This document shows, piece by piece, positions 14,722-27,730 of a DNA stretch of 27,849 nucleotides. How positions within the stretch are numbered: position 1 is the first letter of the stretch; each line of letters begins with the position of its first letter. The stretch comes from a virus. Location: positions 1 to 27,849 of IMG/VR virus record IMGVR_UViG_3300022929_000157; one strand, written 5' to 3'. Under the pieces are notes generated by a model. It saw only the letters and a program-made list of their open reading frames with translations. It was not told the origin of the DNA and did not search any database. The translations under genes were made by a program, and so were the position numbers.

Positions 14722-16005
14722 TCAGCCGGTCATGTCCGACTCATGGAGGGGCTCAACAGCCAACCCAAGGTGGTGCGAGAACCCACCGTCCGCTTGGATG
14801 TCAAACAACACGGGGACGAGGCGGGCGGGGCGGTTGAAGGTGCCACGGTCGCCACGGACTTTGACGGCACCGTCCTTCATCATCTCACGCATCGCTTCAC
14901 CGACCGTCATGGTGGGCACGGTGCGGGTCGCCTTGACGCCAGCCTTGAACGCCCGACCGGAGAAGCGGAAGGCCCGCATCTCAAACCGGTGTCCGCCGAT
15001 GACGGAAAGGGTGGTCGAGAGTCCTTCCTCCTTGCTGGTCAGGAAGGGCAGGTGGGCGAAGTTGGCACCGGGCGTCATGTTGTGGCGTGGGTTGCCGCAG
15101 GTGGGGCAAGCGTGGCCGGCGTTCTTCACCTGTGCGTTTCCGTAGGTGGCCGTTCGTCCGCTGGTCTTGCAGGGTGAGCAGTACCAGTTGCCGGCGAACA
15201 CCGACGCCTTGAACCAGTCCATGAAGGACGAGGCGTTCACGGTGAACACGCCGGCGTCAACATCCAGCACTGAGCAGTTGTAGGCGTTGCCTTGCGTGGT
15301 GGTTTTGTCCGACTGCTCAAGCATGGAACGGTCATGTGCCTCCATCTCGCCCCGTAGGTGAACGAAGGCGTCCCGTAGCATGCCGACGGACTCAACCACG
15401 ACATAGCGGATAAGGTCGCCGGGGCTGAGGCCGAAGGCGTCGGCTTGCTCGGCGGTGGCGACCTTGCACCCTTCGGGCACCTCGTCCACATCTTGACCGG
15501 TGCGCTCACGGAGGGCACGGATGGCGGTTTCACGCTCGGCGGCGGCCTGTCCCTGCCATTGGTCAAAGGCCATGATGGCGGCGGCGGCACGGCGCACGGC
15601 TTGGCCGGCGGCGTTGGTGGCGGCGAGGGCGTCAAGCATCACAGCGTCGGCGGTGTTGATGACCCACGGGATGCCACGGGTGGTGGTGAAGTGCAGGCGG
15701 TAGACGCCAGCGGCCATGAGGCCGTTCACCATGTCGGCGGCGTCCTTCGCCTTCATCTTGAGGCCCACGAGGCCGGCAACGGCTCGCATGTCACCAGCCT
15801 TTGCGGCGTCCTTGACTCGGTAGCCGTTGACAGGGAGGCGGCGGGTGCCGGCTTTGTCCATGTCTGGCCGCAGGGTGTCAAGGAAGCGTAGCATAGCCTC
15901 CATGAGGGCGGCCAGCAGGGCGGGCCGCACAGTTTCGTTCTCTCCGCTGGTCATGGCTTGCACCATGTCCACGGGTTCTTCCTGTGGTTGGGGTTCGTTC
16001 TTCAT
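14722..16005 (-). CDS. 427-aa GC-rich protein of unknown function with zinc ribbon
   Basis: 427 aa from ATG 16005, chosen because GGAGGAC lies about 5 nt upstream; longer in-frame starts reach upstream of the promoter. The N-terminal two thirds is Ala-rich and helical (AVRRAAAAIMAFDQWQG). A zinc ribbon follows with C276-x2-C279 (YCSPCKTSG) and C300-x2-C303 (ACPTCGN). The C-terminal part is beta-rich (LSVIGGHRFEMRAFRFSGRA, ARLVPVLFDIQ). Codon usage is much more GC-rich than in the virion or accessory modules, suggesting separate ancestry. It is convergent with the terminase. I do not recognise a family. Confidence 0.7.
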   Translation of the reverse strand: MKNEPQPQEEPVDMVQAMTSGENETVRPALLAALMEAMLRFLDTLRPDMDKAGTRRLPVNGYRVKDAAKAGDMRAVAGLVGLKMKAKDAADMVNGLMAAGVYRLHFTTTRGIPWVINTADAVMLDALAATNAAGQAVRRAAAAIMAFDQWQGQAAAERETAIRALRERTGQDVDEVPEGCKVATAEQADAFGLSPGDLIRYVVVESVGMLRDAFVHLRGEMEAHDRSMLEQSDKTTTQGNAYNCSVLDVDAGVFTVNASSFMDWFKASVFAGNWYCSPCKTSGRTATYGNAQVKNAGHACPTCGNPRHNMTPGANFAHLPFLTSKEEGLSTTLSVIGGHRFEMRAFRFSGRAFKAGVKATRTVPTMTVGEAMREMMKDGAVKVRGDRGTFNRPARLVPVLFDIQADGGFSHHLGLAVEPLHESDMTG

Positions 16006-16098
16006 TTTCTGTCCTCCAGTGTTGCGGTTTCGGGTGTCGTTCATGCGGTTCGCTGTGTGTTGTTCCTCAGCCGCTACGCGGCATAGGGTAGGCATCCC

Positions 16099-16115
16099 GT
16101 ATATCAAGTTAGCCG
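16099..16115 (-). promoter_or_regulatory. Promoter of 427-aa gene with box abutting TATA
   Basis: On the minus strand TTGATATAC (16099-16107) is a good TATA box about 97 nt before the start codon, leaving a leader of roughly 70 nt. A GTTAGNCG box (16108-16115, in reverse orientation relative to this promoter) touches the TATA box directly. A protein bound there would cover the BRE/TATA region, so repression is the simplest reading. This differs from the 30-bp upstream placement in the accessory promoters. Confidence 0.5.
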
Positions 16116-16361
16116 GCATTTTCCTTGATTTTGGGCCGATTTGACCCCGCCGGAGGGCCGCCGGCGACCCCGCCGGACGGGCCGGACTACTGAACCAAGG
16201 GTTGGGTAGTCGGGCGGTCTGGAGGGTTAGACGCGTCTAACTTCGGCCCCGCCGAACGGCGGTTAGACGATGCAAAGTTAGACGAAAAAAAAGCAGTTAG
16301 ACGAAAAAATTTCCGAACGAAAAAGAGCCAAAAGTTAGACGAAAATACCTGAAGTTAGGCG
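16108..16361. repeat. GTTAGNCG box cluster 1
   Basis: Eight copies by hand: 16108, a perfect 16-bp palindrome GTTAGACGCGTCTAAC at 16226-16241 (two boxes), 16262, 16277, 16296, 16334 and 16354. Several carry an A-run directly after the box (GTTAGACGAAAAA). No gene is seen from 16120 to 16445. Confidence 0.85.
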
Positions 16362-16371
16362 ATGAGTCCGA

Positions 16372-16419
16372 CCCCCCCGCCTTGGCGGAGGGGCCGGAGG
16401 TGGACACCTCGGAGAGGTG
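16372..16419 (-). terminator. Paired GC hairpins at 3' end of 69-aa gene
   Basis: Same design as the pair at 14641-14693. A long GC hairpin (16372-16393, CCCC-C-CCGCC, TT, GGCGG-A-GGGG) is accompanied by a 6-bp hairpin CACCTC-GGA-GAGGTG (16405-16419). The odd position is again C-A on the plus strand and G-U in minus-strand RNA. It sits 27-74 nt beyond the stop of the minus-strand 69-aa gene. Confidence 0.55.
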
Positions 16420-16445
16420 GAATGCGTCAGCGGCGACGGTAGCCC

Positions 16446-16655
16446 TCAGCGGTGCTTGGCGGCGAGGCGGCGAGCCTCAGCACGGGCGTTGGGGCGGAGA
16501 GCGGCGCAAGCAGGGCACATGGGCACGCTGTCGGCGTCCTCGTCGTTGCGGAATTCGGCACGGTGGGCAGGGCCTACGGACTTGAACGGCTTGGCACCGC
16601 ACAGGTTCACGGATGCACCGGAGACACGGATGTGAAGGACACGACGGGCCATCAT
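16446..16655 (-). CDS. 69-aa zinc-knuckle protein
   Basis: 69 aa, basic. Cys motifs: NLCGAKPFK (one Cys near residue 19) and MCPACAALRPNARAEARRLA (CxxC near residues 47-50). It could hold one zinc with three Cys and a His. The ATGATG start overlaps the stop of the 85-aa gene. Its GC-rich codon usage matches the neighbouring 427-aa and 85-aa genes. A DNA-binding accessory role is possible; nothing specific is recognised. Confidence 0.55.
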   Translation of the reverse strand: MMARRVLHIRVSGASVNLCGAKPFKSVGPAHRAEFRNDEDADSVPMCPACAALRPNARAEARRLAAKHR

Positions 16656-16909
16656 GCCTCATCTCCATCTTCTGGCTCGGTGATTCCAAGGAGGGCGTCA
16701 ACCTGCTGGAGGGCGTTGTAGACGGCATGGGACAGGTCGCCAGCGGCGGCGGCCCATCCATCTTCAACATCTGCGTAGTCAGCAAGGGCACGGTGCAGGG
16801 TTGCACGGAGGCCCCACAGCCGGACACGGGTGGCCGGTGCGGGTTCACTGTGCTTCAACACGGCCGGTTCTCCGGCAATAGGGCTGGTAGGGTTTTGGTT
16901 CTCCTCCAT
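16652..16909 (-). CDS. 85-aa acidic helical protein
   Basis: 85 aa. A Pro/Glu-rich N-terminus is followed by helices (RLWGLRATLHRALADYADVE, LSHAVYNALQQVDALLGI) and an acidic end (EPEDGDEA). It is the first gene of a two-gene unit with the 69-aa zinc protein. A TATA box centred about 24 nt before the ATG suggests a leaderless mRNA. Helical acidic proteins of this size may be small transcription or replication partners, but no family is recognised. Confidence 0.6.
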   Translation of the reverse strand: MEENQNPTSPIAGEPAVLKHSEPAPATRVRLWGLRATLHRALADYADVEDGWAAAAGDLSHAVYNALQQVDALLGITEPEDGDEA

Positions 16910-16930
16910 GTAGTGAAGCAGGGCGTGGGG

Positions 16931-16970
16931 GTATATGAAGGGACACCCCCGCAGGGGAGTAGCGTCTAAC
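16931..16970 (-). promoter_or_regulatory. Box-TATA promoter of 85-aa gene
   Basis: On the minus strand GTTAGACG (16963-16970) is followed by TCATATA (16932-16938), whose first base is 32 bp from the first base of the box. The ATG lies about 24 nt from the TATA centre. The segment between box and TATA holds a small GC inverted repeat (CCCCTGCGGGG), not found in the other promoters. Confidence 0.55.
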
Positions 16971-17328
16971 CGAAGGCGGCGTCTAACCGCGGAGGTAGCG
17001 TCTAACCGCCGGAGGCGGTTAGCCGGCGCGAGTATTCGTTGTTAGTCGCGTCTAACGAATAACGGAGTAGGGATTGTTAGTCGCGTCTAACTATTAACGG
17101 CCACGAGCAAAGTTAGACGATGCGTGTGACGCTGGTTAGACGAAACGAAAAAAGTTAGACGAAAAATTGTTAGCCGAAAAAACCATCGGTTAGACGAAAA
17201 ATAGTTAGACGAAAAAAAAATAGTTAGACGAAAAAACTTCCGAAAAAGTTAGACGGTTAGACGAGGTGTCCCCCGCCCGCCAGCGAAAACGGGCGAGGGA
17301 CGGTTAGCCGGAGGGCAGAAGTTAGACG
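16963..17328. repeat. GTTAGNCG box cluster 2
   Basis: About 19 boxes by hand. Three inverted boxes (16963, 16980, 16999), one direct (17018), two 16-bp dyads GTTAGTCGCGTCTAAC (17041-17056 and 17076-17091, 35 bp apart), then a run of direct boxes at 17112, 17135, 17154, 17169, 17189, 17204, 17223, 17248 and 17256, spaced 8-25 bp and mostly followed by A-runs. Two more are at 17303 and 17321. It resembles an iteron array. No gene is seen between 16910 and 17331. Confidence 0.85.
17270..17299 (-). terminator. GC hairpin at 3' end of 82-aa gene
   Basis: Arms CCCCCGCCCG and CGGGCGAGGG enclose a 10-nt loop, 33 nt beyond the stop of the minus-strand 82-aa gene. The only imperfect position is C-A in plus-strand RNA and G-U in minus-strand RNA, as in the two hairpins further left, which supports a role in minus-strand transcripts. 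Confidence 0.45.
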
Positions 17329-17331
17329 GGC

Positions 17332-17580
17332 TCAGTTCAACTCTTCATTGAAGTGGTATACAATGTCGGAAAATTCTTCCTTGAGGACTTCTCGCGTGGT
17401 GTGGGGGCAAGAAACACAGGCATCGGAAGTAACTTCACGAGCGGCGACAGCGGCGAAGTATTGGCGGTCAGCGGGGGTTGCGTTCTCGTTAAGGTAAGCC
17501 CACACAATGCCAAGCAAGGCGGGGCCGGTAAGGTCTGCGAGGGCGTTTTCAAGGCGGACATGGGCTGGTGTTTTGCTCAT
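17332..17580 (-). CDS. 82-aa protein with CxxC
   Basis: 82 aa. N-terminal helical part (VRLENALADLTGPALLGIVW), then PADRQYFAAVAAREVTSDAC and a CVSCPH motif near residues 55-58, then acidic helices (REVLKEEFSDIVYHFNEEL). It is isolated within the box region with its own box-TATA promoter and hairpin, so it is a good candidate for a dedicated regulator or replication factor of the region. No helix-turn-helix is obvious and no family is recognised. Confidence 0.6.
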   Translation of the reverse strand: MSKTPAHVRLENALADLTGPALLGIVWAYLNENATPADRQYFAAVAAREVTSDACVSCPHTTREVLKEEFSDIVYHFNEELN

Positions 17581-17602
17581 ATTATACGGTAGGGCTATTG
17601 GG

Positions 17603-17640
17603 TATATAAGGTTGTTGATATAGCCGTATAATCGTCTAAC
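17603..17640 (-). promoter_or_regulatory. Box-TATA promoter of 82-aa gene
   Basis: On the minus strand GTTAGACG (17633-17640) is followed 31 bp later by TTATATA (17603-17609), which is centred 26 nt before the ATG at 17580. This gives a leaderless mRNA with the same layout as the forward accessory promoters. Confidence 0.7.
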
Positions 17641-18702
17641 CGCAGGTCGGCTAACACGGGGGAAGGGTAGCGATGGTTATTCGCGTCTAATTTTGCGTTT
17701 TTTGCGTATTTGTTAGCCGCATCTAACTTTTTATGCGTATTTATTAACTATGGTTAGCCGTTAATAAGTAAAGTTAGTCGCGTCTAACTTATAGGGCCCC
17801 CATGCAACGGTTAGACGAAATTTATTTGCTGTTTGCGAATAGTGTAGTATCGGCGGGCGATGCAATTTTTTTTCGGCTAACCACAACACTGCAAGCCGGA
17901 AAGTTAGACGATGGCCTTCGGCTAACAAACAGGGGCGCAGTAACACGGTTAGACGAAATAAATATCGTTTTTGCGAAGAGTCTACTATGGGCGGAACATG
18001 GACTTTTTTTCCGTCTAACCAGCAGACTGCGAGGCCATCAGTTAGACGAGGCTAACCGGCCCAAAAAACGCCTTTTCGGCTAACTCCCATCGGCTAACAA
18101 AATGCAACGCAGTGCAACGGTTAGGCGAAAAAAAACAGCAAAATCCTCCGAATGTAGACTCCTTGAAAATTCGTATTTTTTTACGGCTAACCAAGCAACT
18201 GAAAGCCTGTTTGTTAGGTGAGGCTAACCGGCTGAAAATGGCCTGTTTCGGCTAACCTGTGGCTAAGGTATTTCAACCTCCCCTGCTTCGTCTAACTTCT
18301 CCATCACACCCGAAAATTTTTAGACGCGCCTAACTTTTCGCTTGAAATTTATTGACTACAAAAATCGTTTTGACTACAAAAAAAGTTAGCCTCCACTAAC
18401 TGTGGTGTCCTTTTCACCAATCGCGATTTCAGCGGTCTTTAATTAGCCGTGGCTAACTGCGCTTGCCGGTTAGACGAAATTAGGCGAGGCTAACCGTGAC
18501 CGTGGTTAGACGAAATTAGATGCGGCTAACTACGCCCTGCGGGCGACGGGGTTAGACGCCCGTGCGTGACGCTGGTTAGCCGATGGCTTGGCGGGGTTAG
18601 ACGGTGTTCCGAATCGGGGGTTAGATGATGTCCCCAAAGTTAGCCGACCGGCAACGACGCCCTTTCTTTATGTTACAGACACGCAAGATGCGTGGTTAGA
18701 CG
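17633..18702. repeat. GTTAGNCG box cluster 3
   Basis: About 27 boxes by hand in both orientations over 1.07 kb with no credible gene. It includes dyads such as GTTAGTCGCGTCTAAC (17773-17788) and variants TTAGACGAGGCTAAC, TTAGGCGAGGCTAAC and TTAGCCGTGGCTAAC, the ordered triple unit at 17810-18220, and direct boxes at 18469, 18505, 18551, 18575, 18596, 18639 and 18695. The last box belongs to the first accessory promoter. Forward and reverse ORFs here only translate the repeats. Confidence 0.85.
17810..18220. repeat. Three tandem units with fixed box geometry
   Basis: Units begin at 17810, 17948 and 18120 (periods 138 and 172 bp). In each, a direct box with a following A-run faces an inverted box preceded by a T-run, and the outer edges are exactly 72 bp apart (17810-17881, 17948-18019, 18120-18191). 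The next direct box or its variant starts 22 bp after that edge (17903, 18041, 18213). The linker sequence has diverged, keeping a CGAA-GTNTA-like centre and an ACTGNNAGCC/ACTGNNAGGCC-like stretch. Confidence 0.8.
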
Positions 18703-18731
18703 AAAAAAAGCCAAACCGAACACCTTATATA
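18695..18731 (+). promoter_or_regulatory. Accessory promoter P1
   Basis: GTTAGACG (18695-18702) with an A-run, an ACCGAA element ten bases before the TATA, then TTATATA (18725-18731). The first base of the TATA is 30 bp from the first base of the box. It drives the unit 18766-20677. The first start codon is about 38 nt from the TATA centre and has a GAGG site, so this mRNA has a short leader. Confidence 0.75.
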
Positions 18732-18765
18732 GTAGTAAAAATATGTAGATGTGAGGCGAAAAGAA

Positions 18766-18924
18766 ATGCCAACCAACCAAAACCGAACCAAGCGAGACAT
18801 CATCCGAATCAAGGGCGTAGCATGCGCCAAGTGTGGATGCAAGACCTTCCGACCCCTCGGAGGTGGGGACAATGGACGATGCGTCCACTGTGGCACCTTC
18901 ACCATCCTATGGGGTGCTTACTGA
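18766..18924 (+). CDS. 52-aa zinc-ribbon protein
   Basis: 52 aa. Basic N-terminus MPTNQNRTKRDIIRIKG, then C20-x2-C23-G-C25 (ACAKCGCKTF) and C39-x2-C42 (RCVHCGTF), a four-Cys zinc ribbon like those of small transcription-factor-type proteins. It is the first gene under P1 and the nearest gene to the box array, so it is one candidate for a regulator, but no recognition motif is visible. GAGG lies about 10 nt before the ATG. Confidence 0.65.
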   Translation: MPTNQNRTKRDIIRIKGVACAKCGCKTFRPLGGGDNGRCVHCGTFTILWGAY

Positions 18925-19160
18925 TGCGCCACGGCTGGTCAACCTACACAGTCCTCCCAATCCCCACGGCGGAGAACCCCATTGAAACGCTCAACGACGA
19001 CCTCACCACCACGACGACCCACACCAGCGTTCGGGCCTACCTCGCCCACACACGACGACGGTGCCCCCACATGTTGTTCAAATCCGTTCGGGGCTTCACC
19101 ATTGTTGAAATCAAGTGGCGACTCAACGACGACTACATCCGCACGGAGGGGAACCAATGA
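18924..19160 (+). CDS. 78-aa hypothetical protein
   Basis: 78 aa from the ATG at 18924, overlapping the zinc-ribbon stop (TGATG). It has a Thr-rich middle (DDLTTTTTHTSVRAYLAHTR) and a beta-like end (LFKSVRGFTIVEIKWRLNDD). Coupled within the P1 unit. No recognised family. A longer frame to 18588 would run back through the promoter and is rejected. Confidence 0.55.
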   Translation: MRHGWSTYTVLPIPTAENPIETLNDDLTTTTTHTSVRAYLAHTRRRCPHMLFKSVRGFTIVEIKWRLNDDYIRTEGNQ

Positions 19161-19336
19161 CCGAAAAAATCCCCACCCCTGCCGACGCTCTCCACGCGCT
19201 CACGGAGGCCCTGCTCACGCTTGACATGTCCATCGCGCTTCATGTGATTCAAGACTCGCAGTCCATTTGCTACATGCACACGGGCGAAATTATGAACCGC
19301 ATTCAAAAAATCCGAAGGAGGCTTCAAGATGACTGA
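19157..19336 (+). CDS. 59-aa helical protein
   Basis: 59 aa starting MTEKIPTPADALHALTEALL, probably two or three helices with a basic C-terminal helix (EIMNRIQKIRRRLQDD). The ATG overlaps the previous stop (ATGA) and GGAGG lies upstream. Size and helical nature would suit a small adaptor or inhibitor. Function unknown. Confidence 0.55.
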   Translation: MTEKIPTPADALHALTEALLTLDMSIALHVIQDSQSICYMHTGEIMNRIQKIRRRLQDD

Positions 19337-19547
19337 GGAATGTGACTTTTGCGGAACAGAAAAACCCGATGTGCGATTGCGTTTCACCGCACACCATCCG
19401 GTTTGGCCTCACGACGGCTCGCCCCCCCATCTGTTTTGGGAACGGGAGGCGGCGTGTGACTGCTGTTTCCGTTGGTTCCTCAAAGCCCTGCCGTCCGACG
19501 AGCAACGCCAACTTACGCTTGAGAAAAACGGGGAGGGGTCGTCGTGA
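19329..19547 (+). CDS. 72-aa zinc-binding protein
   Basis: 72 aa. C5-x2-C8 (ECDFCGTEKPDVRLRF) and C43/C45/C46 (AACDCCFRWF) form a probable zinc knuckle around a His/Pro-rich middle. A strong AAGGAGG site precedes the ATG, and the start overlaps the preceding gene by 8 nt. Fourth gene of the P1 unit. Resembles treble-clef or ribbon microproteins but not a named family. Confidence 0.6.
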   Translation: MTEECDFCGTEKPDVRLRFTAHHPVWPHDGSPPHLFWEREAACDCCFRWFLKALPSDEQRQLTLEKNGEGSS

Positions 19548-19774
19548 TTGAATGGATTCTCGCCCCCCTGCATTGGTCGCGCTCGCCCGACTTCACCGAC
19601 CGCCTCTCTACCTGCGGACGCTTCCGGCTCACCGCAAAAATCCGCCACGGCGACCCGCACATCCGGTGGTGTGTGTTAGACGATTGGTCGCCCCATCCCC
19701 CATCCTCATTTCCCTCTCTCCGCATGGCTCAAGAGGCCGTGCTTCGCCAACTCGCGCAGGAGGCCACACAATGA
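19544..19774 (+). CDS. 76-aa hypothetical protein, GTG start
   Basis: 76 aa with a GTG start overlapping the previous stop (GTGA). The sequence MIEWILAPLHWSRSPDFTDR and a later RWCVLDDW, then a C-terminal helix (RMAQEAVLRQLAQEAT), suggest a small beta-plus-helix fold. A GTTAGACG match near 19676 falls inside the coding sequence and is probably chance or a weak extra site. Function unknown. Confidence 0.5.
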   Translation: MIEWILAPLHWSRSPDFTDRLSTCGRFRLTAKIRHGDPHIRWCVLDDWSPHPPSSFPSLRMAQEAVLRQLAQEATQ

Positions 19775-20493
19775 CCACATACCCAAGGAACCCCGAAAAC
19801 ACACGCCCGAAAAAGAACGCCATAGAACCTCGCCGGTGCGGGAGGTGTAGTGGCCGTGGCTACGGCCCGTGGCGACCCGACGGTGGCCGGTGCTATCAAT
19901 GCCTTGGTTCCGGTCGGGGCCGTGGCGTCAAGGTGTATGCCTTCCCTGTTGATTGGACGGACGACCAGTGCGCCGCATGGACGGAGGACTACAACGCCAA
20001 ACTCGCCGCCCGCCGTGAGGCTCGCAAAAAAGCGAGGGAGGAGGCCGCCGAATCCGAACGCTTGGAGGTGGTCGCGAAGAACACCAAGGCGGCTGGCGTC
20101 CGTGCGATGAATTTCAAGACGGAGAACACCTTCATCCTTGACATTCAAGCCAAGGCGCAGAAATACCTTTTGTCCCAAAAGCAAGTTGAAGCCCTCAAAA
20201 ACGCGTGCCAGCGAGAGCGTGACCGCAAGAAGGAGGCAAAAAACGACATCATGCCACCGGAGGGCCGACAGTCCATCACGGGTGAGGTTCTGTCCGTCAA
20301 AGAGCATCATTCCATGTATGGCATGAGCCTCAAAATGACCATCAAGTGCGACGGCTACCGGTTGTGGGGCACCGTGCCGAAGGGCATAGACCCGCAACGG
20401 GGCGACACCGTCACGCTCACCGCCACCATCCAGCCCAAAGAGAAGGGCTTTGGCTTCTTCTCCCGACCCACCGGAGGTGCCATCGTTGACTGA
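19771..20493 (+). CDS. DnaJ-type zinc finger plus OB-fold-like protein
   Basis: 240 aa from ATG 19771 (AGGAGG upstream, ATGA overlap). Residues 22-51 have two CxxCxGxG knuckles (C23/C26, CGRCSGRG; C41/C44, CYQCLGSGRGRG), as in the DnaJ central domain. A helical basic middle follows (about 75-160, RREARKKAREEAAESERLEV). The C-terminus (165-240) reads as an OB-like beta barrel (ITGEVLSVKEHH, GYRLWGTVPKGIDPQRGDTV). The OB part suggests single-stranded nucleic-acid binding. It is the largest P1 gene and a candidate replication or recombination factor. Confidence 0.65.
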   Translation: MTTYPRNPENTRPKKNAIEPRRCGRCSGRGYGPWRPDGGRCYQCLGSGRGRGVKVYAFPVDWTDDQCAAWTEDYNAKLAARREARKKAREEAAESERLEVVAKNTKAAGVRAMNFKTENTFILDIQAKAQKYLLSQKQVEALKNACQRERDRKKEAKNDIMPPEGRQSITGEVLSVKEHHSMYGMSLKMTIKCDGYRLWGTVPKGIDPQRGDTVTLTATIQPKEKGFGFFSRPTGGAIVD

Positions 20494-20677
20494 AACTCGC
20501 TGTGGCATCTGTGGAAACTTCGGCCTATTCGGCGGTGTCGTCCTGCACCCCCGCACGCGTCGCCCGACGACCCGCTGTTCTCGTTGCCGAGATGATGAGG
20601 CGGTTAGCCGAAAAAATGCCGAATCGGAGGTATTATATACCTCATCAAACCATGTTGATTTAGAGGTGAAAGAATGA
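20486..20677 (+). CDS. 63-aa zinc-ribbon protein, TTG start
   Basis: 63 aa starting at TTG 20486 with GGAGGTG about 7 nt upstream and an 8-nt overlap with the previous gene. C6-x2-C9 (RCGICGNFGL) and a second CxxC (TRCSRCRDDE) form a zinc ribbon. The last third of the gene is the complete P2 promoter, so its C-terminal residues are partly dictated by promoter sequence. Ends the P1 unit. Confidence 0.55.
   Translation: MTETRCGICGNFGLFGGVVLHPRTRRPTTRCSRCRDDEAVSRKNAESEVLYTSSNHVDLEVKE
20603..20639 (+). promoter_or_regulatory. Accessory promoter P2
   Basis: GTTAGCCG (20603-20610), A-run, then TTATATA (20633-20639), first bases 30 bp apart. It lies inside the 3' end of the 63-aa gene. The next start codon is about 38 nt from the TATA centre, with GAGGTGA before it. 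Confidence 0.75.
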
Positions 20678-20895
20678 CCGAATGGCTGATACAAGAACCC
20701 GAAGAACACGACCGAGATTTTGATGACCGTTTGTCTGTGTGGCTGATGAAGCACCCGACATGGGCCGTTGTGGTTGACCGTGAAACGGAACGCATCAAAA
20801 ATCCCAAACTCGGCTATCGCTGGCTATCGTGGCTGGATGCTCGCCGTTGGGCTTACTTGACCATTTTCACCCGACACGGAGGGAAGAAAGAATGA
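20674..20895 (+). CDS. 73-aa acidic/aromatic hypothetical protein
   Basis: 73 aa starting MTEWLIQEPEEHDRDFDDRL with many Trp residues (WLMKHPTWAVVVDRE, YRWLSWLDARRWAYLTIF). The ATG overlaps the previous stop and has GAGGTGA upstream. It is first under P2. The small acidic start and Trp-rich second half have no recognised match. An anti-defence or host-interaction role is only a guess from its accessory context. Confidence 0.55.
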   Translation: MTEWLIQEPEEHDRDFDDRLSVWLMKHPTWAVVVDRETERIKNPKLGYRWLSWLDARRWAYLTIFTRHGGKKE

Positions 20896-21128
20896 GACAC
20901 GCAAGGCGATATGACAATGTGAACGGTTGGGAAAGAACGATGGCGGAGTCCTTCGTTTTTACTTCGGAAAGCCGCACATGTGAAGAAACTCTCCGTAAGG
21001 CGGTGATAGCCCACCTTGACAGGCAGTTGCGTTCATACGGTTTGCGTCCTTCGGGTTGGGGTCGCCACGCACTTCACGACCGCACCATGGAATTGCTTCT
21101 TCAAAAAATCAAGGAGGATTCCCAATGA
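20892..21128 (+). CDS. 78-aa hypothetical protein
   Basis: 78 aa starting MRHARRYDNVNGWERTMAES, then a helical, basic C-terminal region (LRKAVIAHLDRQLRSYGLRP, MELLLQKIKED). ATGA overlap with the preceding gene and a GGAGGGAAG site support the start. Function unknown. Confidence 0.55.
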   Translation: MRHARRYDNVNGWERTMAESFVFTSESRTCEETLRKAVIAHLDRQLRSYGLRPSGWGRHALHDRTMELLLQKIKEDSQ

Positions 21129-21355
21129 GCGACGAGATAATCCCGTGGTTTTGGAAGAAGCGATACCCCCACGCCCCTCAGTCGTTGCGCTACAACGCGC
21201 CCGGAGGCTGGTCGCTTGACCCCGCCTACGGTGGGGGTTGGACTGTCATGCGGACAGGTTCATCTGTGAACGGATTCTGCCTTGAACGCTGGCACTGCGC
21301 CGACATTGACGAGGTCACCAAAATCTTGAACGAAAACGGGGTGTGTGTAGAATGA
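21125..21355 (+). CDS. 76-aa hypothetical protein
   Basis: 76 aa, MSDEIIPWFWKKRYPHAPQS then a Gly/Trp-rich core (GGWSLDPAYGGGWTVMRTG) and a helix at the end (DIDEVTKILNENG). AAGGAGG lies in the preceding gene end and the ATG overlaps its stop. Probably a small alpha/beta domain; no family recognised. Confidence 0.55.
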   Translation: MSDEIIPWFWKKRYPHAPQSLRYNAPGGWSLDPAYGGGWTVMRTGSSVNGFCLERWHCADIDEVTKILNENGVCVE

Positions 21356-21855
21356 GCAACCTTTCCGACCTTTACCAAAAAATGGACAAGCGTTCACGAA
21401 AATGGCGTGAGTCCAACGATTGCACCGTCAAGGCTCTCGCGATAGCCACGGGCAATACCTACGAGCAAGCGCACGGCGCGCTCGCCTTGCGTGGGCGCAA
21501 CCACCGCAAAGGCACGAGCATGTTCAATGTGTTCAATGCGCTTCGTGATTTTGGTTTTACCGAAAAAGAAGTCTACCGTCATAGTGCCGTTGAGAAAGCA
21601 CAAAACCCCTATTATCGGGACTGCGAAACGACTCAAGAAATCGCAAAGAAAATGCGCCGCACCCGATGGGCCAAAGGGCGCACCATGAAATCAATTGAAC
21701 CCCACCTGCCGAAGCGTGGGGTCTATATCATTCAAACCTCATCCCATGTGCTGTGCGTGCGAGCCGGTCAAATCCATGATTGGACGAGCAAGCGCAAGCA
21801 CCGCATCACCCATGTCCACCACATCACGAAGGCGGGGGTGTCTCGCAAAGAATGA
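21352..21855 (+). CDS. Papain/C39-like cysteine-peptidase fold protein
   Basis: 167 aa from ATG 21352. The N-terminal helix carries C24 in SNDCTVKALAIATGNTYEQA, followed by HGALALRGRNHRKGT, a pattern of phage proteins with a papain/C39-like fold (NDCxVxALAxA). Later H132 (TSSHVLCVRAGQIHDW) and D143 can complete a Cys-His-Asp triad. The C-terminus is basic (TSKRKHRITHVHHITKAG). It could cut a host or viral protein or act as a structural relic of a peptidase; the target is unknown. Last gene of the P2 unit. Confidence 0.6.
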   Translation: MSNLSDLYQKMDKRSRKWRESNDCTVKALAIATGNTYEQAHGALALRGRNHRKGTSMFNVFNALRDFGFTEKEVYRHSAVEKAQNPYYRDCETTQEIAKKMRRTRWAKGRTMKSIEPHLPKRGVYIIQTSSHVLCVRAGQIHDWTSKRKHRITHVHHITKAGVSRKE

Positions 21856-21862
21856 GGTGGTG

Positions 21863-21921
21863 GTTAGACGGAAAAATGCCAAACCGAAGGTATTATATAC
21901 CCCTCCCGACAATGGGTATAT
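21863..21921 (+). promoter_or_regulatory. Accessory promoter P3 with second TATA
   Basis: GTTAGACG (21863-21870), ACCGAA ten bases before the TATA, then TTATATA (21893-21899), 30 bp from box to TATA. A second TATA-like GGGTATATAG at about 21912-21921 could give an alternative start. The ardA leader is about 45 nt with GGAGG before the ATG. P2 and P3 are nearly identical around the TATA, suggesting duplication. Confidence 0.75.
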
Positions 21922-21966
21922 AGAGCCGAAGGAGGCAACCGAACCAACCAAACAGGAGGAAAAACC

Positions 21967-22530
21967 ATGACAGGAAAAACAGATACCGAACCGCAAGTCT
22001 ATGTGGCTTGCCTTGCTTGCTACAACGAAGGACGATTGCACGGCAGGTGGATTGATGCCGACGAATTGGAACATGAATGGGGCTATCGCAAGCACTACGG
22101 AAACGCACCACCCGAAGATGAGGATGGGCGATACCCCATGACGAAGTGCAAAAAACCGAACCACGACGAATGGGCGATTCACGACTACGACGGGGTTCCC
22201 AACTTGGGCGAACATCCCGACATCCCGTATCTCATCAATGTCATGCGGTGCATTGAGGAACACGGCGACGCGTTCCGTGAATGGTTCAACCTTGACCCCC
22301 ACAACAAATCCCACCACGACGATTTGAGCGAGGCGTTTGAAGAGGCGTATTGTGGCAAATACAAATCGGAAGAAGATTTTGCCGCCGAACACGCTGAAAG
22401 CATGGGCTACATCAGCCCCGAAAATCAAAACCCGTTGCTCATGTATGTGGACTATGAATGGTTTTGGAAAGCCTCTTTACGCCATTCCCACTACTTCTCC
22501 AACGGCCATGTTTTCCGAGGTGATGTTTGA
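21967..22530 (+). CDS. ardA: ArdA-type antirestriction protein
   Basis: 187 aa, near the usual ArdA length. The N-terminal VYVACLACYNEGRLHGRWID (11-30) is the ArdA signature strand-helix and EWAIHDYDG (68-76) is the second hallmark. The protein is acidic overall, as expected for a DNA mimic that occupies the DNA-binding site of type I restriction-modification enzymes. The preceding leader has a GGAGG site. It heads the P3 unit. ArdA is mainly known from bacterial plasmids and transposons, so its presence in an archaeal-type virus is notable. Confidence 0.88.
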   Translation: MTGKTDTEPQVYVACLACYNEGRLHGRWIDADELEHEWGYRKHYGNAPPEDEDGRYPMTKCKKPNHDEWAIHDYDGVPNLGEHPDIPYLINVMRCIEEHGDAFREWFNLDPHNKSHHDDLSEAFEEAYCGKYKSEEDFAAEHAESMGYISPENQNPLLMYVDYEWFWKASLRHSHYFSNGHVFRGDV

Positions 22531-22901
22531 TGACCCGAATTGACCTCGGCCCCCGACGCGAGCCCTACGGCGACCACGACCTTGACCCCGACGGTTGGTA
22601 TGGCCCGTTCCACGACCGAGACTTTGCCCTGCGGGTTTTCGCCAAACTCCGCCGCCAGCAAAAATACCGTGGCAAGCCCTCCCTTCTTGCGGGTATCGGT
22701 GATTTCACAGAATGGCTCACGGTTCCCGCGACCGTCGTTGAAGAAGCCATTCGCCGTTCCGATGGTGTCTCCAAACACGCCAACGCCAAGGTCACGACCG
22801 TTTGGTGGTTCAAATTGCACCCCACGCGGGTTTCCGCATGGCCCCAAGAACACAAGGACTTTTCTCTCAACGCTGAAAACAATTGGGGTGAGGAAGAATG
22901 A
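22530..22901 (+). CDS. 123-aa protein next to ArdA
   Basis: 123 aa. Asp-rich start (TRIDLGPRREPYGDHDLDPD), then GPFHDRDFALRVFAKLRRQQ and a TVVEEAIRRSDG helix. The ATG overlaps the ardA stop (TGATG) with GAGGTGA upstream. Its coupling to ardA makes an anti-defence role plausible but unproven. No family recognised. Confidence 0.55.
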   Translation: MTRIDLGPRREPYGDHDLDPDGWYGPFHDRDFALRVFAKLRRQQKYRGKPSLLAGIGDFTEWLTVPATVVEEAIRRSDGVSKHANAKVTTVWWFKLHPTRVSAWPQEHKDFSLNAENNWGEEE

Positions 22902-23245
22902 GCATCAGCCTTGACATCACCGAAGAATCCCGCTTCCGCATGGAAGGTTCATGGGGTGCGACCCAATGGGAAGAAGGCACCCTCCGCATCACCGCATGGG
23001 TCAACGAAGAACGAGGCCGTGGTGGTTTTGAAATCTACGATGTTGAGACTCGTGGGAATCGCGCCTACGGCGAAGGTGGCCTGTGGCTTGACGACAACGG
23101 TTTCCTGTGCGATTATGACGGCGTGGGTGGTCTTGACCTCCGCATCATTCAATGGTTGGACGATGAAGGTCACATTGACTCCAACCCGAAAGATTATTTC
23201 CGTAAAAGAATCAACGAGGCGGCTGAAAAGCGAGGTGATGCTTGA
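22898..23245 (+). CDS. 115-aa acidic beta protein next to ArdA
   Basis: 115 aa. Strongly acidic with alternating beta-type segments (LRITAWVNEERGRGGFEIYD, NGFLCDYDGVGGLDLRIIQW). The ATG overlaps the previous stop (ATGA) in the P3 unit. Acidity and position after ardA make a second DNA-mimic inhibitor a testable guess. No family recognised. Confidence 0.55.
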   Translation: MSISLDITEESRFRMEGSWGATQWEEGTLRITAWVNEERGRGGFEIYDVETRGNRAYGEGGLWLDDNGFLCDYDGVGGLDLRIIQWLDDEGHIDSNPKDYFRKRINEAAEKRGDA

Positions 23246-23499
23246 TGGTTTGCTACGCATACACCCCCGCCCCGACCTTCGCTCTCATCACCTACACGGT
23301 ATGGCCCGATTTTCTCATCCCCCCACGGTGTCCACGACAGGATGCCGCCGTTCTTTCTCCACGGGTGCAGAAAATCCGAAAGGAAACAGCAGAATACCGC
23401 CACGGACGGAAGGGTTTTATTCTTCCCGTAAAAACATCAATGGGGACTCACGATTGGCCTTGCGTCGTCGCCCCTCATGTCACGGAGGTGGGTGCATGA
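23245..23499 (+). CDS. 84-aa hypothetical protein
   Basis: 84 aa starting MVCYAYTPAPTFALITYTVW. The ATG overlaps the previous stop (TGATG) with GAGGTGA upstream, and the end overlaps the next gene by 4 nt. Composition is less typical (Pro/Ala/Ser) than its neighbours, but the coupling on both sides supports it. Function unknown. Confidence 0.45.
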   Translation: MVCYAYTPAPTFALITYTVWPDFLIPPRCPRQDAAVLSPRVQKIRKETAEYRHGRKGFILPVKTSMGTHDWPCVVAPHVTEVGA

Positions 23500-23606
23500 C
23501 CGTTCAAGCCGGATGTCACAACTGTGTTCATTTCTTCATCTCGTATTTCAAGGAATGCGGCACCTGCGGCACGCACCTTCACGACGACGGGAGGACTGAC
23601 GAATGA
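23496..23606 (+). CDS. 36-aa zinc-ribbon microprotein
   Basis: 36 aa with C7-x2-C10 (GCHNCVHF) and C22-x2-C25 (ECGTCGTHLHDD), a minimal zinc ribbon. GGAGGTG lies 6-7 nt before the ATG and both ends overlap neighbours by 4 nt. One of several such microproteins in the window. Function unknown. Confidence 0.55.
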   Translation: MTVQAGCHNCVHFFISYFKECGTCGTHLHDDGRTDE

Positions 23607-23989
23607 ACACCCGACCACGACGCGACCACATCCGCAAACCCGGACGCAAGGACTCATGCGAAGCCGTGGCTGAAACGATGGCCCACTTCTCACGCGTGGC
23701 CCGAAAACCTGTTTGGTTCTCCTACGAGAACCTGTGGGACATTGAGGCCGAGTCCCGCCGAGTCTCCGGTTCATCCCGCCGCATGACGACTTCATCTTTC
23801 CCCTCCCGTGGCGTTTTCGCCAATTTTGTTTCAAGTCATTCTCACCTACGGTCAAAAACAATCGCCGTAAAAATAATTCCCGACCTTCCCAAGACCTCCG
23901 ACAACATGAAAGACCAGCGAAGGTATGCTTACATTCACCTCGGCCAATCCGACATTGAAGGCGTTGACTACGCCGGAGGTGTTCAGTGA
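23603..23989 (+). CDS. 128-aa basic hypothetical protein
   Basis: 128 aa, MNTRPRRDHIRKPGRKDSCE then VAETMAHFSRVARKPVWFSY, a Ser/Arg-rich middle, and an end with YAYIHLGQSDIEGVDYAGG. ATGA overlap with the zinc microprotein. Last gene of the P3 unit. No family recognised. Confidence 0.5.
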   Translation: MNTRPRRDHIRKPGRKDSCEAVAETMAHFSRVARKPVWFSYENLWDIEAESRRVSGSSRRMTTSSFPSRGVFANFVSSHSHLRSKTIAVKIIPDLPKTSDNMKDQRRYAYIHLGQSDIEGVDYAGGVQ

Positions 23990-24002
23990 AGCCGAGGTGG
24001 TG

Positions 24003-24039
24003 GTTAGACGCAAAATACGCAAACCGAAAGCCTTATAAG
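24003..24039 (+). promoter_or_regulatory. Accessory promoter P4
   Basis: GTTAGACG (24003-24010), ACCGAA ten bases before the TATA, then TTATAAG (24033-24039), again 30 bp from box to TATA. The leader holds a small hairpin GCGGG-GGCAA-CCCGC (about 24065-24079). Drives the DUF932 unit. Confidence 0.75.
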
Positions 24040-24119
24040 GGCAACCGAGTATGTGTATTTAGAAGCGGGGGCAACCCGCCGACAACCAAAAACACAAACA
24101 AAAAATGGAGATGAAAAAT

Positions 24120-25082
24120 ATGATGGCAAGTTATATGATGATGGGTCAACAGGCCCAAGGCACGACGACAGAAGAGGTGTTGCGAAACGCCGGATTGGAC
24201 TTTGAGGTGGGGCGTGAACCGCTCTACACCGCCGCAGGGCGTGAGATTCGGTCAAAATTCCAGCGCATCAAGCGCATGGACAACGATGTGACGCTTGGCG
24301 TGGTGGGCCGCACCTATCACCCGATGCAGAACCGTGACCTGCTCGGCATCGCTGACCGCCTCGTGCAGAACGACGACATCACTTGGGACAGAATCGGCAT
24401 GGTGGGCGCAGGTGAGAAACTCTACGCCTCCTTCAAGTTGCCCGACACCTACCGGATTGATGGGTGGGACGACTTAGACCAATACATTTACCTCACCAAC
24501 ACGCATGACGGTTCCGGTGGTATCAAGTGCATTCCCGCCAACATCCGGTTCGGTTGCACCAACCAATTCGCCTTCCACCGACGGCAACTGCAAGCGGCGG
24601 GCATCAACCCTCGTGACCTCACCATCCGGCACTCTTCCAAGATGTCGGAACGCATCGGGCAGTTTGAGCGTGCCATCGGCCTCGTTGACACCCTCAACAA
24701 CAACTTCGCCACCCAAGCCGCCGAGTTGATGACCGTTGAGATGACGGAGGCTGACAAAGCCACCTTCTACATTGACGCTCTCGGCCTCACCACCGACGAA
24801 AAATTGGTGGATGCTGACAACGAATGGGGCCTCAAGACGCGTGGCCTCAACACCTTCAACCACCTCAAGGAGTTGGAGAAGTCCAGCACCAACAACACCG
24901 CCGCCATGCGAGACACCGCTTGGCAGTCGTTCAATGTGGTGACCGAGTACCTTGACCACGCATGGGTTCACAACGCTTCCGGCACAGTCAACGCCAAGCG
25001 CGCCGAGTCTTCCATCCTCGGAACGGGCGCACGCCTCAAGGCCAAGGCTTGGGACACCATCACCGCACGCATCGTCGCTTGA
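24120..25082 (+). CDS. DUF932 (TIGR03299-type) phage/plasmid protein
   Basis: 320 aa. Motifs of the DUF932/TIGR03299 family: a region around NAGLDFEVGREPLYTAAGRE, GVVGRTYHPMQNRDLLGIAD, GAGEKLYASFKLPD, YIYLTNTHDGSGGIKCIPAN, and RFGCTNQFAF. The family is widespread in phages and plasmids; its biochemical role is unknown, though links to replication or DNA maintenance are often suspected. ATG 24120 is chosen since GGAG lies 8 nt upstream; ATG 24105 (five residues longer) is possible. First gene of the P4 unit. Confidence 0.8.
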   Translation: MMASYMMMGQQAQGTTTEEVLRNAGLDFEVGREPLYTAAGREIRSKFQRIKRMDNDVTLGVVGRTYHPMQNRDLLGIADRLVQNDDITWDRIGMVGAGEKLYASFKLPDTYRIDGWDDLDQYIYLTNTHDGSGGIKCIPANIRFGCTNQFAFHRRQLQAAGINPRDLTIRHSSKMSERIGQFERAIGLVDTLNNNFATQAAELMTVEMTEADKATFYIDALGLTTDEKLVDADNEWGLKTRGLNTFNHLKELEKSSTNNTAAMRDTAWQSFNVVTEYLDHAWVHNASGTVNAKRAESSILGTGARLKAKAWDTITARIVA

Positions 25083-25231
25083 GATTCACCGGAGGACTTC
25101 ACAAAAAGAGACATCCCTATCCCTATCATCTTGGTTCACACCTCCGTCCCAATGACCCCCCGCTTGGTGGTTCTTGCACGGGCGAGGGGCGAAGCGTGTG
25201 CATCAATCAGAAACTTTTGGAGGAAAAATAC

Positions 25232-25747
25232 ATGACAGGAACAAACACAATTTGGGAAAAATCAATCAACGAATACAACAAGAACGGCCCCGACCCCGAA
25301 GGCTCGGTGTTCTTCCGTGTGTCCGTCAAGGAAACGGTGACCCGCACCTACATGACAACCGACCCGACCATCAAGACCGCGAAGGCCGTTCGTGAGCAAT
25401 ACGACGAATGGCACACGGACAGTTGGCGAGAAATGGATGACATAGATTCGGACGGGTCGCGCATCGGCAAAATTGAGAAGGTGGTGTATTCCCCCTGCTC
25501 TTTCGCCCTGCGCTACCTCACGCCACCGGCAGACTTCCCCGCAGACAAACTGCGCTACATCGCATCATCAACCATGTTTGATGAGCAACCCGAAGGTGGC
25601 ATGTTCGCCAAGAACAGGATTCACCGCAAGTTTGAACGATGCACGAGTTATGTTGAGGGTAAAACTTCTTCTGTCTGTGTCCGTTGTTTCCGTCGGCTCA
25701 ACCAAGGCTGGTCTTTCATCTCGCCCTTGAAGGAGGCGAGCGAATGA
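25232..25747 (+). CDS. 171-aa protein with Cys cluster
   Basis: 171 aa from ATG 25232 with GGAGG 8 nt upstream. N-terminal TNTIWEKSINEYNKNGPDPE, an alpha/beta middle, and C137, C149 and C152 (FERCTSY, SVCVRCFRRL), which can hold a zinc. The 149-bp gap before it shows no convincing gene or TATA box; it may be processed from the P4 transcript. Function unknown. Confidence 0.6.
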   Translation: MTGTNTIWEKSINEYNKNGPDPEGSVFFRVSVKETVTRTYMTTDPTIKTAKAVREQYDEWHTDSWREMDDIDSDGSRIGKIEKVVYSPCSFALRYLTPPADFPADKLRYIASSTMFDEQPEGGMFAKNRIHRKFERCTSYVEGKTSSVCVRCFRRLNQGWSFISPLKEASE

Positions 25748-25878
25748 TTTCTTGGTGTTCTCGTTGTCAAGCAGAAACAGTCCGTGAGGTTCGTTTGGTC
25801 GCACTTCACCCAAGCAACCGAAAGAGAAAGGTTGCCTTATGTCAATGCTCTATCGCTTTGTTGGAGGACTCCGAATGA
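25744..25878 (+). CDS. 44-aa zinc-ribbon microprotein
   Basis: 44 aa with C5-x2-C8 (WCSRCQAE) and C33/C35 (LCQCSIAL) around a basic segment (HPSNRKRKVA). The ATG overlaps the previous stop (ATGA). Part of the P4 unit. Function unknown. Confidence 0.55.
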   Translation: MISWCSRCQAETVREVRLVALHPSNRKRKVALCQCSIALLEDSE

Positions 25879-26168
25879 CGACGAGCGCACAGGTCAAGAA
25901 GTGGCTCAAGGCTCAAGGAGTTGAAGTCAAGCGAACACGAAGCATCAACGGCAAGCGTGGCGGGAAAACCGTCACGCATTATATTGAAGCCCGAAGCGGT
26001 TCTTTGTCGCCTATATTCCCCGTTGAAATGCGCGAGCAAATGCTGAAAATCGTCTATGGTTCCGACTTCGTTTCTCGTGACGGTCGGTGGATTGCTGGAA
26101 ACATCACCCCACACATGGTTTCTATGCACCCCCTCCGATGGGCGGCTTTGATGGAGGCGAGCGAATGA
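25875..26168 (+). CDS. 97-aa basic winged-helix-like protein
   Basis: 97 aa. The N-terminal helix-turn-beta start (TSAQVKKWLKAQGVEVKRTR), the basic hairpin SINGKRGGKTVTHYIEAR, and the helix EMREQMLKIVYG could form a small DNA-binding domain. GGAGG precedes the ATG, with an ATGA overlap. It is one of the better candidates for a DNA-binding regulator encoded in the window, but the domain call is only a guess from pattern. Confidence 0.5.
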   Translation: MTTSAQVKKWLKAQGVEVKRTRSINGKRGGKTVTHYIEARSGSLSPIFPVEMREQMLKIVYGSDFVSRDGRWIAGNITPHMVSMHPLRWAALMEASE

Positions 26169-26257
26169 GCGTAGAAGCCGAATACCGACGCGATGAGTTT
26201 CTGTTCTTCGTTGCTGGTTTTGAACACCTCGCCACCGTTGATGAGGTGAGCGAATGA
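26165..26257 (+). CDS. 30-aa acidic microprotein
   Basis: 30 aa, MSVEAEYRRDEFLFFVAGFE plus HLATVDEVSE, with 4-nt overlaps to both neighbours (ATGA each side). The coupled position supports translation; the length is at the limit of what can be called. Function unknown. Confidence 0.4.
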   Translation: MSVEAEYRRDEFLFFVAGFEHLATVDEVSE

Positions 26258-26556
26258 GCGTCGGCCCTCGTGATTTGACGCTCACCCGCCTTGAAGGACT
26301 CGTCGCAGGGATGATTGGGAAAGACGCCATCAATGACGGCATCTTCCTCACCGACCGCAAAGTTTGGGTGTCCAACCTTGAGATGATTCGTGCTTCCTGT
26401 CCCGTCTGTGGTCAAGAGTTTGTCGGGCCGGACTACAATGTGTTCCACATGCTCGCAACGCATGACTACGGCCACAACAAATTGGTTCAAATCGCTCAAC
26501 AGAACGCCGAGATGGAAGAGTTTGACGACGAAGAAAGGGGAGGCACCGTCGCATGA
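26254..26556 (+). CDS. C2H2 zinc-finger protein
   Basis: 100 aa. Residues 49-74 read C49-x2-C52-x12-H65-x4-H70 with a further H74 (SCPVCGQEFVGPDYN, HMLATHDYGH), a C2H2 finger. A helical N-terminus precedes it and an acidic C-terminus (MEEFDDEERGG) follows. Single C2H2 fingers are common in archaeal viruses and often bind DNA. ATGA overlaps on both sides. Confidence 0.65.
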   Translation: MSVGPRDLTLTRLEGLVAGMIGKDAINDGIFLTDRKVWVSNLEMIRASCPVCGQEFVGPDYNVFHMLATHDYGHNKLVQIAQQNAEMEEFDDEERGGTVA

Positions 26557-27011
26557 AGGCTTACCTCTACCACTTTGACAATTCGTCTAACCCTGTGTGG
26601 TATGCTGGCCTCGGCGTGCCGTTCAAATTGACGACCGATTTTTCTTTCGCAAAGTCCGTTGACTTCGGTTCCGTTGGAACCTCCATGCTGTTGAAGCAGT
26701 TGGAAAAGTTTTACGGCAAACATTTCTATCAAGTCTCACTTCAAGACGCTGTTCCCTCTCCCGATTATCGTTGTGCTTCCTGTTCCACCTGCTGGACTGA
26801 GGATGAGAAAAAGGCGACGATTGACTCCGAGATTCATGTTCACTTGGCTTCTCCTTTGAGAACCAAATCCGCCCCTTCTTTTGCCGAAAAAATAAACAAC
26901 GCTCGCAGGTGCCTTTCCTGTCGTGTGCTTTTGTGCGGCGACTGCGCCCCCAACATCAACGCACGAAGCAAGAAGTGTGTCGTGTGCAAGCCGAAGCGGA
27001 GGCGTGGTTAG
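26553..27011 (+). CDS. Multi-Cys zinc-binding protein
   Basis: 152 aa. The N-terminal 65 residues are alpha/beta (KAYLYHFDNSSNPVWYAGLG), followed by C74-x2-C77-x2-C80 and then C120-x2-C123 (CLSCRVLLCGDC, also C128/C131) and C142-x2-C145 (KCVVCKPKRRRG), resembling a treble-clef or B-box-like zinc cluster. A chance CGTCTAAC box match lies at 26584-26591 inside the gene. Its TAG stop is formed by the P5 box itself. Function unknown. Confidence 0.6.
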   Translation: MKAYLYHFDNSSNPVWYAGLGVPFKLTTDFSFAKSVDFGSVGTSMLLKQLEKFYGKHFYQVSLQDAVPSPDYRCASCSTCWTEDEKKATIDSEIHVHLASPLRTKSAPSFAEKINNARRCLSCRVLLCGDCAPNINARSKKCVVCKPKRRRG

Positions 27012-27043
27012 GCGTAAATCCGCCCTACCGACAACCTTATAAA
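27007..27043 (+). promoter_or_regulatory. Accessory promoter P5
   Basis: GTTAGGCG (27007-27014), ACCGAC ten bases before the TATA, then TTATAAA (27037-27043), 30 bp from box to TATA. The TAG stop of the upstream gene is part of the box. The leader has a short GGGC-GGGAA-GCCC hairpin before GGAGG. Confidence 0.75.
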
Positions 27044-27094: not shown

Positions 27095-27730
27095 ATGACC
27101 GAGGACAGAATGACCGAATGCGAGAAGAAGTGGGGCGGTGAAGGCTCGCGCCTCTACAACGCCGAATGGGTGCGACGACTTGATGTGTTGCTGGCCGACG
27201 AGCGGGTATCACGATACCCTGTCGTCAAGCGACGACTTCAAGGTATGCGCCGCCACGCCATCAAGGTTGAGCAACAACGCTTAACCAAAATCCAAGAATG
27301 CTTTGACGGTAAATACAACATACACGCACCGTATGAACGCATCACCCACGCACACGGCCTTTACGGATATTTCCGAACCCAAGCGAGGGCTTGGTTGTGC
27401 GCCTCCAAGACTTTCACGCAGACAGATTCCATGTGTCCGTTCTGCATGGAGGATTTCGCCACAGAAGCCTTCACCAGCGACAAATTGCGTTATGACGGCC
27501 CCGCAAAGTCATGGGGCGACTTGAACCTCAATGTCAACCGATACGATTTCAACGACCCTGCGATTAAAGAGCAATCGCATGACTGTGCGGTGTTCGCCGC
27601 CGCCGTCAACCGCTACCTCAACATCCGAATGACGCCGGATGGCGACCGATGGGACACCTTCTACATGGTTCTCGTGGACGGCCAATTCGTCAAGGTTGAA
27701 GAGAAATTGGAAATGAGATTGGGGGAATGA
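27095..27730 (+). CDS. 211-aa hypothetical protein with CxxC
   Basis: 211 aa from ATG 27095, where GGAGG lies 7 nt upstream; ATG 27089 has only 1 nt spacing. Helical basic N-terminal half (VLLADERVSRYPVVKRRLQG, RRHAIKVEQQRLTKIQ), then C114-x2-C117 (MCPFCMEDF), then an alpha/beta C-terminus (CAVFAAAVNRYLNIRM, DTFYMVLVDGQFVKVEE). First gene of the P5 unit. No family recognised. Confidence 0.6.
   Translation: MTEDRMTECEKKWGGEGSRLYNAEWVRRLDVLLADERVSRYPVVKRRLQGMRRHAIKVEQQRLTKIQECFDGKYNIHAPYERITHAHGLYGYFRTQARAWLCASKTFTQTDSMCPFCMEDFATEAFTSDKLRYDGPAKSWGDLNLNVNRYDFNDPAIKEQSHDCAVFAAAVNRYLNIRMTPDGDRWDTFYMVLVDGQFVKVEEKLEMRLGE

Follow-up and report, generated by a model that had tools for sequence, protein, structure and literature searches.

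Box-bearing promoters and a box array

The window, which is the whole of the IMG/VR record IMGVR_UViG_3300022929_000157 (27,849 nucleotides), is a 27.8-kb viral contig encoding a terminase, a portal, other structural genes and an accessory region with ArdA-like and DUF932 proteins. It holds 67 copies of a short box, TTAGNCG, which lie upstream of the TATA elements of accessory promoters and in a dense intergenic array. At five plus-strand promoters (P1 to P5), the start of the box (GTTAGNCG) is separated from TTATA by exactly 30 base pairs (bp), and the box has one orientation throughout. In P1 (18695-18731), the box GTTAGACG at 18695-18702 is followed by an A-run, ACCGAA and TTATATA at 18725, upstream of a gene (18766-18924) for a zinc-ribbon protein of 52 amino acids (aa). 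P2 (20603-20639) has the box GTTAGCCG at 20603 and TTATATA at 20633 and serves a gene at 20674-20895. The box GTTAGACG recurs in P3 (21863-21899; box at 21863, TTATATA at 21893), upstream of an ArdA-like anti-restriction gene (21967-22530, phrog_2059), and in P4 (24003-24039; box at 24003, TTATAAG at 24033), upstream of a DUF932 gene (24105-25082, PF06067). P5 (27007-27043) combines the box GTTAGGCG at 27007 with TTATAAA at 27037 and precedes a gene starting at 27095.

Two minus-strand promoters show nearly the same arrangement. In M1 (17603-17640), the box lies 31 bp from TTATATA, and the gene at 17332-17580 has a leaderless-type start with a TATA-to-ATG distance of 29. In M2 (16932-16970), the box lies 31-32 bp from a poorer TATA element, TTCATATA, whose counterpart in the sister contig G014 reads TTGATATA; the gene at 16652-16909 starts about 30 bp downstream. 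The original prediction had reported the five forward pairs and the two reverse ones, the latter at 31 and 32 bp, and the forward coordinates and orientation proved correct throughout. It had also proposed a scan for box, spacer and TATA; in the window, six pairs stand among the 67 boxes at the modal distance ±1 (29-31 bp), compared to 0.08 expected by chance (Poisson p times 50 = 1.2e-8), and boxes in the reverse orientation formed no TATA pair at any distance. TATA-to-ATG distances in the window and other genomes cluster at 28-31, 41 and about 72-75, so that these look like genuine promoters, whose transcripts would be leaderless or have short leaders.

The boxed promoters serve the zinc-ribbon, ArdA and DUF932 genes and small genes. 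In relatives, boxes also precede a Cas4/RecB-like nuclease gene (in G006; the G015 ortholog has none) and a conserved 74-80-aa gene, and in near-complete relatives no box is found at PolB and several other TATA promoters. This distribution supports an early or accessory set of genes, in line with the accessory regulon of the original prediction, 'early' being read from gene content only. In four relatives, a box promoter also stands before a small gene of the VPHVEYEILKEVLNNIP... type, which is conserved and about 58-80 aa long (G002 45917, G006 4959, G024 14102 and G015 65224). The 52-aa zinc-ribbon protein (18766-18924, plus strand) opens the plus-strand operon and is kept in several array-bearing relatives; its resemblance to RNA polymerase subunit P and Rrn7 ribbons is weak and not significant.

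Outside P1-P5, nearly every other box sits in an array that the original prediction had overlooked. This array (16108-18640, about 2.5 kb) lies between the minus-strand genes at 14722-17580 and the plus-strand operon beginning at 18766 and holds about 58 further boxes on both strands (38 plus, 20 minus; about 1.2 expected by chance), including palindromes of 14-16 bp such as GTTAGTCGCGTCTAAC. Three modules, each a convergent box pair of 70 bp, occupy 17811-17880, 17949-18018 and 18121-18190. Among ten genomes, eight contain convergent pairs measuring exactly 70 bp (19 pairs in all), 14-bp palindromes are present in nine arrays and a tandem distance of 93 bp in all ten; jittered boxes gave at most 9 pairs at any one distance (mean of the maximum 5.0). 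Sets of three convergent pairs of 70 bp (one of 69) per genome lie at 17811-18190 in the window, 7558-7946 in G004, 54049-54428 in G006 and 7307-7677 in G017. The interior of the 70-bp pairs shows no sequence conservation between lineages; only the layout is kept. The array may be an origin or maintenance element, an enhancer or perhaps a titration sponge.

Box and spacing among related viruses

A search of IMG/VR with the window terminase returned relatives (contigs labelled G or L with a number), about 50 of them close and at least 185 in the wider set. The near-complete relatives G006 and G015 encode PolB, an RFC-like clamp loader, PD-(D/E)XK and ERCC4 nucleases, a GroEL-type chaperonin, a portal and a tail tube. 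PolB, clamp loader, PD-(D/E)XK nuclease, GroEL and a tailed-phage head module are the gene set of magroviruses, whose hosts are marine Poseidoniales (PMC10768690, PMC12999244). This set is found in G006 and G015 and not within the window itself. The group I (GroEL-type) chaperonin of G006, at L067 10295-11878, is as reported for aoguangvirids. Genomes of Magrovirales measure 90-110 kb; the longest relatives here reach 60-67 kb and are possibly incomplete. The relatives are probably magrovirus kin, their host being assigned by likeness of gene set alone, and the window comes from an uncultured marine virus, probably one of archaea. When 84,980 genomes were scanned for a host with the terminase profile and with the chaperonin, no relative emerged, and INPHARED phages yielded only distant terminases (23-29% identity). 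The magrovirus papers covered make no mention of such repeats or promoters.

Wherever a relative's contig reaches far enough past the terminase, a dense array lies in the same place, each with its own box. The array box is GTTAGACG in the window and G014, GTTAGCCG in G003, GTTAGTCG in G004, CTTAGTCG in G017 and L012, TTTAGTCG in G005, G006, L035, L023 and G018, and ATAGTCGC in G015, G029, L040 and L041.

The distance to TATA differs between these viruses as well. Measured from TTAG across about 15 contigs, each genome has a single spacing class. It is 28-30 bp in the window, G014, G003 and G015/G009 (30-32 in G029) and 19-21 bp in G004, G002, G005, G006, G017, G018, G021-G024, L023 and L035. 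Counted by lineage, the class of about 30 bp comprises that of the window and three more, and the class of about 20 bp at least six. TATA-like strings stand at other distances inside some arrays (e.g. 20-26 in G015), but not upstream of recognised genes. The difference is seen at orthologous promoters. Those of the zinc-ribbon, ArdA and DUF932 genes have 29 bp in the window and G014 and 19-20 bp in G004, G002 and G017, although some contigs do not contain all three genes. For P1, the distance is 29 in G014 and G003, 19 in G004 and G017 and 20 in G006, and the M2 ortholog in G004 has 19. These shifts amount to 9-10 bp, about one helical turn, and the promoters move together. The core promoter is retained across the switch at two of the three genes (60-93% identical), the DUF932 core being 45-55% identical. 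At ArdA, the core is 93% identical between the window and G002, and the G002 box lies about 9 bp nearer to TATA. The original prediction had suggested a comparison with relatives for conserved spacing despite sequence drift. The outcome goes further: spacing is uniform within each genome and differs by about one helical turn (20 against 30 bp) between genomes at orthologous promoters. A distance of 30 bp is not special in itself, as 20 bp serves in related viruses.

The terminase tree places the window and G003 (30 bp), with strong support, among 20-bp viruses and shows the clade of G015 and G029 as a separate 30-bp group. This placement implies that the spacing changed at least twice or that the module was exchanged.

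At 57-63% terminase identity, relatives carry other boxes (GGTTACAAA, TATGCTACAAA) with repeated spacings of 16-17 and 14 bp. The spacing test is passed by L125 (p 0.004) and L131 (p 0.03) and failed by L126 and L134, and these spacings are to be taken as leads. Arrays with 9-90 copies of unrelated boxes lie near the terminase in L126, L131, L134, L142, L145 and L152 (GTTACAAA), in L125 (GCTACAAA) and in G013, G019 and L052 (CTTCGTAGG), and several distant-relative arrays adjoin another cysteine-rich protein. In L144, L146, L149, L151, L154 and L157-L159, clusters of the TATA-like GTATATA near the terminase replace the box-type array. A SAP-like helical segment, judged by eye, seems to occur in array-adjacent proteins of L123 (4032-5090), L127 (4020-5126) and L139 (6899-8149, minus strand).

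A candidate box-binding protein

Because the box drifts between viruses (GTTAGMCG, GTTAGTCG, CTTAGTCG, TTTAGTCG, ATAGTCGC), the protein that reads it is probably encoded by the virus rather than by the host. The candidate is a 427-aa protein encoded on the minus strand at 14722-16005, with an ATG at 16005 after GGAGG, an open reading frame open to 16119 and a zinc ribbon (C-x2-C...C-x2-C). Its gene lies beside the array, points away from it and is found in 20 relatives. The protein diverges rapidly: the two nearest copies are 88 and 63% identical to that of the window and the others 17-36%, compared to 76-94% for the terminases of the viruses compared. Its tree groups by box and spacing (window, G014 and G003, 100/99; G002, L012, L015 and G017, 100/100) and conflicts with the terminase tree, which mixes 20- and 30-bp viruses. 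The protein has no sequence match in Pfam, PHROG or PDB; no direct comparison with the Cluster A immunity repressor was made. Fold matches to residues 31-184 (helical, Z about 3) and to the zinc ribbon (285-326) were weak and not accepted as relatedness.

A putative autoregulatory site lies at 16100-16115, where a box (GTTAGCCG, 16108-16115, plus strand) abuts the TATA element TTGATATA (16107-16100, minus strand) of the candidate gene. The lineage's own box stands 8-14 bp upstream of the TATA of this gene in 16 of 20 cases (11 exact, five with one mismatch), while 42 of 163 other TATA-like sites nearby (26%) have a box at that distance (33 exact, 20%). Unlike at the target promoters, the orientation of the box varies here between lineages, as expected for occlusion. 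The notion of the box as a promoter operator stands as to orientation, fixed spacing and restriction to a subset of promoters and is incomplete in that most copies lie in the array and one sits, repressor-like, at the TATA of a regulator-like gene.

Proposed regulation and alternatives

From fixed spacing and orientation, array geometry, the spacing switch, co-variation with the protein and the box at its promoter, all directly observed, we infer binding, activation, repression and a function for the array. In the reading to which we give a probability of roughly 0.55, a virus-encoded, autorepressing box binder would activate an early or accessory regulon by helix-face contact, with the array as a nucleoprotein hub. 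The box would be the binding site of a viral regulator, most likely the fast-evolving zinc-ribbon protein at 14722-16005. Target promoters carry a single box in constant orientation, two or three helical turns (20 or 30 bp) before TATA, and a protein bound there would face the TFB/TBP complex and help to recruit it. At its own promoter, where the box touches TATA and the TFB recognition element (BRE) in either orientation, it would block initiation, a negative autoregulation. The array could collect many copies of the protein in a fixed architecture of 70-bp convergent pairs and a 93-bp period. A helix-face-dependent activator is favoured since the distance is two or three turns, the orientation is fixed and orthologous promoters jump together by about 10 bp, none of which a repressor needs; a switch that leaves the core promoter conserved fits such contact and not passive descent. 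As in archaeal upstream activating sites, the box lies just upstream of BRE/TATA at a helix-phased distance. A bolder version, which we advance tentatively, would have a viral protein of a new family use one box for activation, for autorepression and, through the array, for replication or maintenance. Its specificity would change so fast that the entire regulon was rewritten at least twice among close relatives, with all promoter boxes moved in concert by one helical turn.

Several points weigh against this proposal. The AlphaFold model of the candidate (predicted local distance difference test score, pLDDT, 70; predicted template modelling score, pTM, 0.47) contains no recognised DNA-binding fold except the zinc ribbon. 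Four of the 20 candidate promoters have no autoregulatory box, and their TATA elements were chosen by eye; as the 20 sequences are moreover related, the promoter box is supporting evidence and not proof. Since the gene adjoins the array, its co-variation with the box is partly linkage and thereby inflated, although promoters up to about 10 kb away follow box and spacing as well. Another gene linked to the array might read the box instead, although the gene at 16652-16909 does not track the box (it is 44% identical to its counterpart in G014, a virus that shares the box of the window) and change in the 52-aa zinc-ribbon gene is slow. Finally, the spacer is also genome-specific in some genomes, which gene conversion of box-plus-spacer cassettes could produce.

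The candidate might instead be primarily a replication initiator or maintenance protein, with the array as origin and the promoter boxes secondary, an explanation that we place somewhat below even odds. In the systems of EBNA1 at oriP of Epstein-Barr virus and of the iteron Rep proteins, one protein is likewise associated with an array of repeats, with spaced sites and with a further site at the promoter of its gene. The dense array beside the gene, the conserved pair geometry and the box at the candidate's promoter recall them; there is no homology, the likeness is one of layout, and an origin role is here only putative. The elements of oriP are described in PMC3095595. The array coincides with the maximum of GC skew in the window and also in G006. 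G015 and G013 disagree, which downgrades skew as evidence for an origin, and skew follows gene strand. No unwinding element or initiator fold was identified, the module interior is unconserved, and strict promoter orientation and spacing would remain unexplained by replication alone, which is nonetheless compatible as an added role. Should P1-P5 be copies of one promoter unit of about 45 bp, their spacing would reflect descent and gene conversion and no positional need. Such units exist in the class I intergenic repeats of HF2, likewise an archaeal tailed virus, which carry BRE/TATA at early-middle promoters and were proposed to bind virus-encoded regulators (PMC8707807), and spacer and BRE are partly homogenised within a genome here. 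Each HF2 repeat is, however, a whole promoter that works in the absence of viral factors, and the repeats show strong conservation between relatives (PMC8707807); they are about 58 bp long and include a transcription start site motif. Here, a short upstream box accompanies a large separate array, the downstream halves of paralogous promoters differ, and box, spacer and spacing are not conserved between relatives. From TATA onwards, the core promoter is specific to the gene (as at ArdA in the window and G002), but box and distance are specific to the genome. The promoters on the minus strand hold nearly equal spacing despite their unrelated spacers, and every shift found is close to 10 bp, all of which makes the copied unit unlikely.

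Silencing of promoters and of transcription over the array, as by gp71 of mycobacteriophage L5, would agree with the many copies, the drift of the operator with the candidate protein and the repressor-like box at its promoter. The L5 repressor also is a phage-encoded binder of asymmetric sites, with about 30 genome copies and a motif that diverges together with the protein (PMC6550527). Its stoperators, which stop elongation, are distributed genome-wide (PMC6550527), with a single orientation relative to transcription; here, 58 of the 67 sites lie in both orientations in one 2.5-kb intergenic array and others at fixed positions upstream of TATA. A protein bound 20-30 bp before TATA would not stand in the way of TFB/TBP or RNA polymerase, occlusion needs no helical phasing and magroviruses described so far have no integrases (PMC12999244, PMC10768690), so that we consider this quite improbable. 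That the virus borrows a host transcription factor is more doubtful still: archaeal activators do bind ahead of BRE/TATA in host promoters (PMC7408454), but each related virus has its own box and spacing, whereas dependence on a host factor would keep the box the same. Comparable to the preferred helix-face activator are BarR, an Lrp-type regulator that represses its own gene from sites at its promoter and activates elsewhere (PMC10201364), and Ptr2/TFB-RF1 (PMC5569661), with upstream activating sites, own-gene repression and site spacing in helical turns. These are host proteins with known folds and few sites; for the candidate, which has about 65 sites, no fold was recognised.

Hardly anything is known about gene timing in viruses of marine archaea. 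Here, comparative genomics alone points to an operator with its regulon, to the protein that probably regulates it and, since the same genes have 20 bp in some viruses and 30 bp in others, to a natural series of spacings. Helix-phased activation in archaea can thereby be tested directly. Sites and spacing that are all rewritten between viruses with 92-94% identical terminases represent a rare natural case of coordinated regulatory turnover.

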